Origin: a virus | Reading direction: 5' to 3' (one strand) | Virus record (IMG/VR): IMGVR_UViG_3300032246_000686 | Location: 1 to 24,974 of that record | Length of the DNA stretch: 24,974 nt | Shown here: piece after piece, positions 10,528 to 22,886 of the stretch | Numbering within the stretch: position 1 is the stretch's first letter | Layout of the letters: each line of letters opens with the position of its first letter | The notes under the pieces: generated by a model | The model's database searches: none | What the model was told of the DNA's origin: nothing | What the model saw: only the letters and a program-made list of their open reading frames with translations | Translations under genes and position numbers: made by a program

Positions 10528-10722
10528 TTATTTGGTGTCGGTAAACAGGTCTAGCTGCTTGGGGTCAATAGCGGGGAACTCGTCGATAGGGGCAAGCGCG
10601 GTGAATCGGCGCAGTAACTCAATCTGGTAGGCAGTAGGCAGCTCTTGCACGACGTCCATTAAATTGGCGCAGTGGTTGATGAGCTCGGTGTTGCTCAGGG
10701 TGCGAGGTTGTATAACTTGCAT
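10528..10722 (-). CDS. Small hypothetical protein (64 aa)
   Basis: I use the internal ATG at 10722 because GGAG lies 6 nt before it; the ATG at 10734 has no such site and lies within the preceding gene. The product (MQVIQPRTLSNTELINHCANL...) is helical and acidic at the end, with no recognised domain. It overlaps the HTH regulator gene by 28 nt and ends 13 nt before the primase-helicase gene, so it is probably co-translated with both. A partner or modulator role is only a guess. Confidence 0.65.
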   Translation of the reverse strand: MQVIQPRTLSNTELINHCANLMDVVQELPTAYQIELLRRFTALAPIDEFPAIDPKQLDLFTDTK

Positions 10723-10973
10723 ATTTTTCTCCATGCGTCGTCCGCGTCACGGGCGCTTTGTAATATTTTTAAAAGAAGTTCAGCTCGCTCTTGGTATGCA
10801 GGGAAGATGTCCTTGCCCAAGAACCAGTTGTACGCGGTCTGTCGTGTCACACCCAGTGCTTTGGATACGCGCACCACAGAGAAGTCGTGATAGATGCACC
10901 AGCGGCCAAGTTGGTTTCCCAAAGTCTTGTCCGCATCGGCAACACCATCAATGATTTTTTGTGAATATGGCAT
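10695..10973 (-). CDS. Helix-turn-helix DNA-binding regulator (Cro/C1/XRE-like)
   Basis: A 92-residue protein with a helix-turn-helix at about residues 30-54: FSVVRVSKALGVTRQTAYNW has the spacing and Gly-turn of the XRE fold. It is the right size for a phage Cro- or C1-type regulator without a cleavage domain. The start ATG has only a weak ribosome site and follows directly on a large nested palindrome (10991-11098), so its own expression may be controlled by RNA structure or by an operator there. Targets are unknown; candidates are that palindrome and the inverted repeats at 12767 and 22861. It is unlikely to be a lysogeny repressor by itself, as no integrase is seen here. Confidence 0.75.
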   Translation of the reverse strand: MPYSQKIIDGVADADKTLGNQLGRWCIYHDFSVVRVSKALGVTRQTAYNWFLGKDIFPAYQERAELLLKILQSARDADDAWRKICKLYNLAP

Positions 10974-10990
10974 GGTCGTTCTTAAAAGGC

Positions 10991-11098
10991 GCTGACACCG
11001 GCAGGATGGGAAACGCAGTCGTTGGGATGTTAATTACCTAACGAGGCCGTTTTGGACACCCCGCCCAACGCAATGCGACCGCCACCCTGCCGGGCAGC
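10991..11098. repeat. 108-nt nested palindrome upstream of the HTH regulator gene
   Basis: Four nested stems share one axis. GCTG (10991-10994) pairs with CAGC (11095-11098). CCGGCAGGATGG (10998-11009) pairs with CCACCCTGCCGG (11082-11093), with one mismatch. CGCA (11014-11017) pairs with TGCG (11074-11077). CGTTGGG (11020-11026) pairs with CCCAACG (11064-11070). A small apical hairpin AACG-AGGC-CGTT is at 11040-11051. It fills the only gap between the ssDNA-binding gene and the HTH gene. On the - strand, CCTTTTAAG follows the outer stem, so it could end or attenuate transcription. It could also be a structured RNA or a cruciform or origin element. Confidence 0.6.
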
Positions 11099-11108
11099 GG
11101 AACTTCAA

Positions 11109-12104
11109 TTAGTCTTCGTCATCCCAACCACCGACCACATCGGCCAATGATTTCTTAACGGGCACAGCGCTTGGCTTCTTCTCAGCCTTGCGAACTTCTG
11201 GCTCGGCTTCGTCTTCGTCTTCGTCCGCTACTACGGGAGCAGGTGCGGCCTTGGCTTTGGCTTTTGCCTTGGTAGCCTTGGCTCGCTCAGCCGCAATCGC
11301 TGCGTCCTCTTCTTCATCCATCATCTCGCCCATCGGCTTGGCCTTGGGCTTCGCGCCTTGCAGTGCATCGGCTGGCTTGGCGTTGTCGGTTGCACCGACT
11401 GACATGGTGATGGCTTTGAGCGCATCGTCGGTCTTGCCTTGGTCACCAGCTTGGGTGAACTCATCATCGGTCAACCAACGCATGGCTTTGAAGTGCAGCT
11501 TGGGGGCCTCGGCCTTGGTGTCAAACTTCATGCGAGTCACGACCATGCTAGGGTCAACGCTTTGCGCAACCAACCAACGAGCATACGCTTGCAGCGGACG
11601 GTTCTCGCCTTCTTCCTTACCAAAGATCGAAGTGGCTGGCAATGCCAACTGCATCACGTCGCCTTCAATATAATCGGCCAAGACCACAGCCAAGCGCTGT
11701 TGGTAGCGGCAAGCACGGCTCTGACCATTGCCTGAACCCGCGATGTTTTGTGGGCAGCTTTCGCATGTTGCAGCTTGTGGGTTGGCGGACTTGGCATCAG
11801 GCTTATCACCTTCAGGAGACCAGCAGTCGGGTTGTGCTGCGGTCTCTCCATCGTACTTGGCTGCGTAGAACACGCGTGACACTTTTGGTGCGGCCTTCAC
11901 AATCACCACGTCGAGGAAGCGTTCGTCAATGGCTGAGACTTCTTTGCCAGCAGACATTAAACGAAACACGCCGCCCTTGATAGAGATGCGCTTGCCGCCA
12001 CCTGCGCCGCCACTACCGGCCAGAGCTTTAGCGATGTCGGAAAGTTCACCTGAACGGGCGAACGCGGGGAGTTGGGATGGGTTGAATAAAGCTACGTTGC
12101 TCAT
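11109..12104 (-). CDS. Putative phage single-stranded DNA-binding protein
   Basis: A 331-residue protein with a folded N-terminal ~235 residues, a low-complexity Ala/Lys-rich linker (~250-290) and a strongly acidic C-terminus ending DVVGGWDDED. Acidic tails that recruit replication partners are characteristic of ssDNA-binding proteins such as T7 gp2.5 and bacterial SSB. Four cysteines (C94, C114, C117, C132) in an SCPQN...ACRY context could bind zinc, as in T4 gp32. I recall close relatives with the RLAVVLA...GDVxQLxLPATSIFG core in many phages. The ribosome site AAAGGAGAAA is strong. Its place among polymerase, helicase and nuclease genes supports the role. The assignment rests on architecture and context, not on a recognised OB-fold motif. 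Confidence 0.65.
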   Translation of the reverse strand: MSNVALFNPSQLPAFARSGELSDIAKALAGSGGAGGGKRISIKGGVFRLMSAGKEVSAIDERFLDVVIVKAAPKVSRVFYAAKYDGETAAQPDCWSPEGDKPDAKSANPQAATCESCPQNIAGSGNGQSRACRYQQRLAVVLADYIEGDVMQLALPATSIFGKEEGENRPLQAYARWLVAQSVDPSMVVTRMKFDTKAEAPKLHFKAMRWLTDDEFTQAGDQGKTDDALKAITMSVGATDNAKPADALQGAKPKAKPMGEMMDEEEDAAIAAERAKATKAKAKAKAAPAPVVADEDEDEAEPEVRKAEKKPSAVPVKKSLADVVGGWDDED

Positions 12105-22860: not shown

Positions 22861-22886
22861 GAGATTGTCCAACACTGGACAATCTC
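22861..22886. promoter_or_regulatory. Perfect 10-bp inverted repeat, probable operator
   Basis: Arms GAGATTGTCC (22861-22870) and GGACAATCTC (22877-22886) are exact reverse complements around a 6-nt AACACT. It covers the -35 and spacer region of the putative promoter, so a bound dimer would block RNA polymerase. A diverged relative is at 12767-12783. No T run follows it on either strand, so a terminator is unlikely. The regulator could be the HTH protein (10695-10973) or the winged-helix protein; unknown. Confidence 0.6.

Follow-up and report, generated by a model that had tools for sequence, protein, structure and literature searches.

A structured RNA behind the stop codon of a phage SSB-like gene: a candidate cis-acting element in coupled translation

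Chemla et al. (2020, PMC7518266) described ribosome termination structures (RTS), stable mRNA structures centred just past a stop codon with the next gene at least 25 nt away, which are stronger behind the genes of abundant proteins and have been tied to translational re-initiation; in a synthetic operon, post-stop structures inhibited re-initiation rather than promoting it (PMC7518266). Genes 25 and 38 of bacteriophage T4 have split ribosome-binding sites, in which a hairpin brings a distant Shine-Dalgarno (SD) sequence to a working distance from the AUG (PMC3014915). The intercistronic region of the E. coli rpsL-rpsG (S12-S7) pair is targeted by a protein whose repression is confined to coupled translation (PMC10931766). 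The L17 downstream element and the STAXI motif (PMC2864571) are further structured RNAs, located in 3′ UTRs or close to SSB genes, and a review of translational coupling emphasises that the effect of a structure depends on its position (PMC12548453).

The element considered here fills most of the gap between an SSB-like gene and an HTH gene in the window, by which we mean the whole analysed stretch of 24,974 nt from IMG/VR virus record IMGVR_UViG_3300032246_000686. The original prediction had noticed four complementary blocks in mirror order (4, 12, 4 and 7 bp), and these are present at 10991-11098 inside the 135-nt gap. The 12-bp block stands, while the one mismatch ascribed to it turns out to be G-U pairing in the RNA of the - strand; a fifth helix, P4 (CGGGG/CCUCG), absent from the list of blocks, is present as well. 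The features are as follows.

10695-10973, - strand: HTH gene (ORF), 92 aa, the downstream and putatively coupled cistron; 130 distinct homologous starts compared
10971-10990, - strand: spacer GCCUUUUAAGAACGACC and AUG of the HTH gene; no SD, best duplex -1.4 kcal/mol
10974-11108, - strand: gap of 135 nt that separates the stop of the SSB-like gene from the HTH start, both genes on the - strand
10991-11098, - strand: class A structured RNA, whole element with outer stem, predicted from fold (z -4.3) and covariation
11002-11088, - strand: conserved core, match to covariance model R1 (80.1 bits)
11095-11098, - strand: outer P1 5′ strand GCUG, pairing with 10991-10994
10991-10994, - strand: outer P1 3′ strand CAGC
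11082-11093, - strand: P1 5′ strand CCGGCAGGGUGG, pairing with 10998-11009 with one G-U; inner pairs covary in relatives
10998-11009, - strand: P1 3′ strand CCAUCCUGCCGG
11074-11077, - strand: P2 5′ strand CGCA, pairing with 11014-11017; A-U to U-A changes in relatives
11014-11017, - strand: P2 3′ strand UGCG
11064-11070, - strand: P3 5′ strand CGUUGGG, pairing with 11020-11026; double changes at 5 of 7 pairs
11020-11026, - strand: P3 3′ strand CCCAACG
11059-11063, - strand: P4 5′ strand CGGGG, pairing with 11042-11046, with a conserved G-U
11042-11046, - strand: P4 3′ strand CCUCG, followed by a conserved UUA
11109-12104, - strand: SSB-like gene (ORF), 331 aa, acidic tail GGWDDED; stop TAA at 11109-11111

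Folded as RNA and compared with shuffled sequences, as had been proposed, the - strand reaches a minimum free energy of -53.8 kcal/mol (z -4.30), which none of 200 dinucleotide shuffles equalled; the + strand gives -48.6 kcal/mol (z -4.23). Chance, already thought an unlikely source of the ordered blocks, is excluded independently by the conservation of the pairs in relatives. The half operator TTGGAC read at about 11052 fared less well: it lies in the variable, unconserved loop of P4 and for that reason is best taken as a coincidence. Elsewhere in the window, positions 22862-22885 form a genuine palindrome, AGATTGTCCAACACTGGACAATCT, with letters related to the TTGGAC motif, and this is likely an operator; in its place, related phages have CGGGTCACTGTGACCCG palindromes that recur in the spaces between genes. 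An intrinsic terminator is not supported, there being no U tract behind the element (only GCCUUUUAAG follows) and no hit in a terminator scan of the - strand.

Class A resembles an RTS in that a stable structure (-53.8 kcal/mol in the window) stands directly past a stop codon, and the window has the spacing of one, with 135 nt to the next gene where at least 25 nt are described. The outer stem begins, in SSB contexts, 2-12 nt past the stop codon, mostly 5-10. The difference lies in kind: an RTS is a generic stability signal without conserved sequence, whereas class A appears as a definite RNA family whose core is invariant and which is found once per genome and moves between phages. It is single-copy in 12 of the 12 records with a true match, many of these records being incomplete.

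Sequence comparison indicates that class A is a real RNA family, a sense-strand fold common to dozens of phages and without a match in Rfam. Its core, built of four helices and rich in near-invariant letters, was recovered from 63 distinct phage and provirus sequences. In a first alignment of 27 sequences, standard pairs occupy 97.7% of the pair cells and double changes occur in 11 of 21 pairs, a level reached by 0 of 500 shuffles; when the partners were slid, only 31-61% paired. Further members were found with the covariance model, and in the resulting alignment of 63 sequences, which is fitted to that model and biased towards it, 98.0% of the cells are paired and 197 are doubly changed, against 52.6 in shuffles, with slid controls collapsing. 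The compensatory changes that the original prediction had proposed to look for in related phages are thus there to be found. Conserved letters outside or beside the helices comprise the GCGGU and GCGUUUCC strands around P2, UGC leading into P3, UUA behind P4 and ACA before P3′, and a good part of the near-invariant letters are unpaired. By mutual information the strongest pairs are the structure's own, and beyond the nested helices and the outer stem next to them no convincing signal of a pseudoknot was found. Searches of the 4227 families of Rfam 15, at a loose threshold for the window and at the gathering threshold for 20 related loci, returned no relevant match, known ribozymes included, and whole-region DNA comparison with phage records returned none either. 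The only blastn match to a class A core among phage records, 36 nt in an Aeromonas phage (L356) that lacks the fold, was set down to chance, as was a pattern match of 27.8 bits with no nearby upstream stop (L169). Among 46 pattern matches in bacterial genomes two are true: L336, which has the same SSB/HTH operon, and L350, in the deposited strain Curvibacter lanceolatus ATCC 14669, where an intrinsic terminator follows class A within about 30 nt; a 62-kb IMG/VR record (L398) has the same element as L350.

The 27-sequence subset contains 44 G-U cells and 0 A-C cells, from which we conclude that selection has acted on the RNA fold of the coding strand. This bears directly on the earlier suggestion of a cruciform, origin element or operator acting as DNA. 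A long palindrome upstream of the primase-helicase gene would be in keeping with such a role, but the pairs under selection are those of one RNA strand only, the almost invariant G-U of P4 would be a mismatch both in DNA and in the other strand, and the element invariably follows a stop codon on the coding strand. We give a DNA-level role next to no credence.

The nature of the upstream gene deserves some caution. The window's 331-aa protein belongs to PHROG 27714, of unknown function, and has no Pfam match; sequence searches of solved structures found no relative, and Foldseek against solved structures found none at E ≤ 0.001. Its structure model is of low confidence (mean pLDDT 69). The best match is the phiC31 recombination directionality factor (Z 8.1, rmsd 3.6, 149 aligned); BRCA2, telomere-end and other OB-fold single-stranded-DNA binders come next at Z ≤ 5.5, a range in which a match may reflect only a common arrangement. 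The viral relatives are mostly uncharacterised. For these reasons we label the protein "SSB-like" only; it is, with low confidence, predicted to be single-stranded-DNA-binding-like.

The start of the HTH gene is unusual in the window. Its ribosome site had been called weak, and indeed it has no SD, the best duplex amounting to -1.4 kcal/mol. An SD-like duplex was found at 1 of 130 distinct HTH starts and is present at most other genes of the window. In about 12 clear cases the HTH start is gapless, the upstream stop lying between -1 and 3 nt from the ATG (two further candidates, L149 and L216, were discarded as artefacts in which the stop lies inside the element). The remaining starts have gaps of 26-172 nt, and 92-96% of the gaps are closed by one helix; among those of 50 nt or more the figure is 92-94%, as against 34-36% once they are shuffled. 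What stands out is the single closing helix; the short effective distance from stop to start is not special, being matched in shuffles.

Among the roles originally offered for the palindrome, the best fit is a structured RNA that controls the HTH gene, in keeping with the sense-strand covariation, the 44-to-0 ratio and an HTH start without a ribosome-binding site. The comparisons show that an RNA folds immediately behind the stop codon of the SSB-like gene, and we suggest, with a probability of about 0.5, that the main local role of this element is that of a cis-acting intercistronic RNA governing coupled translation from the SSB-like gene to the HTH gene; class A perhaps also caps the SSB message. 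Because an SD is absent and because stop and start are in direct contact in the gapless relatives, translation of the HTH gene most likely falls to ribosomes fresh from termination on the SSB-like gene. The closing helix would abut the terminating ribosome and bring the stop and start codons together, and it would determine what share of the ribosomes continue, and with it the SSB:HTH ratio, by promotion or by throttling. In a synthetic operon post-stop structures lowered re-initiation (PMC7518266), so that the effect of the fold here may be to throttle and not to bridge. The arrangement, an intercistronic region between two coupled cistrons, recalls rpsL-rpsG, the likeness being one of arrangement and the coupling here a prediction. 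A stimulator of read-through or frameshifting was rejected, as no single frame is conserved after the stop: the class A core falls in the three reading phases 23, 19 and 9 times.

The likeness to the split sites of T4 genes 25 and 38 is partial. As there, no SD lies between the structure and the AUG; class A is much larger, however, and has a conserved core, and in the window the SD just upstream of the stem is weak (UUGAAG). The want of a good SD ahead of the window's stem also counts against the coupling reading. Several relatives of the window phage (L047, L050, L078 and L094) have an SD and then a hairpin that stands 5 to 7 nt from the AUG, and in plain-hairpin relatives such as L050 the three form a split site like that of T4 gene 25. 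In favour of coupling, a strong SD just upstream of the stem was counted in only 1 of 64 cases with a strong downstream SD and in 35 of 117 without one (p = 5e-7), a comparison that spans hairpins, class A and class B and that draws on many related and hence not independent sequences. The SD thresholds and the rule for the HTH N-terminus were chosen after the data had been seen.

What occupies the gap is swapped wholesale among relatives. About 150 loci with HTH or SSB-like homologues were taken from IMG/VR and the gap was cut out of each; class A proved to be one of several types, the others being class B, folds of the L058, L072 and L043 types, and the plain hairpin GGGGGCUUCGGCCCCC. Sister phages retain the SSB-like and HTH genes while the fold differs: in L002, whose HTH protein is 92% identical to the window's and whose SSB-like protein is about 84% identical, the gap holds a plain hairpin only. 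The original prediction had named relatives that keep both genes and lack the paired blocks as evidence against it. Many such relatives exist, and in them another fold closed by a single helix sits in the same place; the sequence of class A is therefore dispensable at the locus, and a closed structure almost always stays. Small cargo genes, often with their own SD, stand between the SSB-like gene and the HTH gene in several phages (L003, L024, L097, L145, L209 and others), and there the HTH gene either follows the new stop codon immediately or comes after a second element.

Class B is a second family of post-stop structured RNA, with a loop-E-like GAAAG/GAGUA above a G5-C5 stem; its sequence is GGGGGGAAAGCGGAUGCUG...GCAGCGAGUACCCCCACCU, the top being highly variable, and it is followed by a near-constant ACC(U/C). 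One exact pattern finds it in at least 120 viral contigs (examples are L009:4914-4985, L194, L210, L244 and L357:2944-3022), mostly in phages other than those with the SSB-HTH operon. An upstream stop lies within 28 nt in 83 of 89 cases, mostly at 3-9 nt, and the canonical pattern is single-copy in 20 of 20 records, many of them incomplete. No Rfam match was obtained for the class B loci tested; STAXI is a tandem pseudoknot, whereas the class A and class B loci tested match none of the 4227 Rfam families. Classes A and B occurred together in none of the records tested, many of which are incomplete, and no hidden second copy was found in the hairpin-only phages among the genomes scanned. Their unrelated cores sit in a common outer context, (U)UUNCGGGG...CCCCACC(U), as if a payload had been exchanged inside a common stem. 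In four SSB-HTH gaps (L012, L120, L121 and L138), hairpins resembling a tRNA T-arm (GGUUCGANUCC) occur in the class B top or enclosed by the stem; ARAGORN called no tRNA in these inserts. A generic scan for post-stop stems was too noisy to use.

The genes just upstream of class B, as far as automatic ORF calls near the elements can be relied on, encode DUF669-type SSBs (7), Gp2.5/Enc34-like SSBs (4), small SSBs of PHROGs 18154 and 7364, a classical SSB and RecT. SSB C-termini typically have an acidic tip that ends in PF, and such a tip is found on some of the proteins encoded upstream of the elements, including the class A neighbour in L402. Class A itself lies in the SSB-HTH operon in 38 of 41 contexts in one set and 54 of 68 in another. 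The link to SSB genes is not absolute, since DUF932, DUF2303, a PHROG 9528 protein and small unknowns also occur upstream. Ten genes upstream of plain hairpins yielded no SSB.

These neighbourhoods lend something to a different explanation, in which a fold flush behind the stop blocks 3′-5′ exonucleases, RNase E or Rho, so that the SSB mRNA outlives the downstream operon. The stability of the mRNA of T4 gene 32, which encodes an SSB, the most stable mRNA of that phage, with an RNase E site at its stop codon, offers a precedent (PMC3014915). The element stands at the edge of the terminating ribosome and has no U tract; plain G/C hairpins replace class A at the locus and are also found behind other genes; and class B lies behind ssDNA-binding genes of several unrelated families (DUF669-type, Gp2.5/Enc34-like, small acidic-tip and classical SSB). 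For such protection a plain hairpin would suffice, however, which leaves the conserved core unexplained; protection does not explain the common lack of an SD before the HTH gene, and three class A contexts already have an intrinsic terminator behind them. We think a 3′ shield possible, though somewhat unlikely as the main role.

Coupling is not the whole reason for the conserved core either, since class A also stands before genes with their own SD (L158 and L409) and before intrinsic terminators (L350/L398, L407 and L420). The conserved non-helical part of the core would thus have an extra role beyond that of a plain hairpin, most likely protein binding or a compact tertiary fold. One form of this is an operator to which the SSB-like or the HTH protein binds and so adjusts the operon, as gp32 and S7 do. 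The near-invariant letters, numerous and in good part unpaired, and the link to SSB genes across families speak for it, but sister phages have the same SSB/HTH pair with completely different folds, and class A is also found behind the non-SSB genes of L158 and L350; we regard this as distinctly unlikely. A self-cleaving ribozyme or other processing RNA seems more doubtful still. Unrelated classes interchange at one locus, as known ribozyme classes do, with one copy per genome and conserved asymmetric internal loops, and small ribozymes are known in phages (PMC10879173); against this, no Rfam ribozyme matches, mutual information gives no sign of a pseudoknot, and plain hairpins substitute for the element.

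More broadly, we speculate, as a rather unlikely proposal, that several unrelated phage lineages independently attached dedicated structured RNAs to the 3′ ends of ssDNA-binding or annealing genes. There would be at least two families of these, A and B, one per genome and mutually exclusive in the records tested, with cores that bind a protein, perhaps the SSB, and tune the replication operon from its 3′ side. If true, such tuning by protein-bound cores would be a 3′ counterpart of the autoregulation of T4 gp32.

Class A is a defined RNA family of phage replication operons, and on the reading that we prefer, governance of coupled translation from the SSB-like gene to the HTH gene, it would offer a handle on how the ratio of SSB to regulator is fixed. 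The swaps of folds and hairpins between similar genes amount to a natural experiment that may separate the role of the closing helix from that of the core, and the RTS proposal, so far drawn from a synthetic operon only, becomes testable on natural elements.
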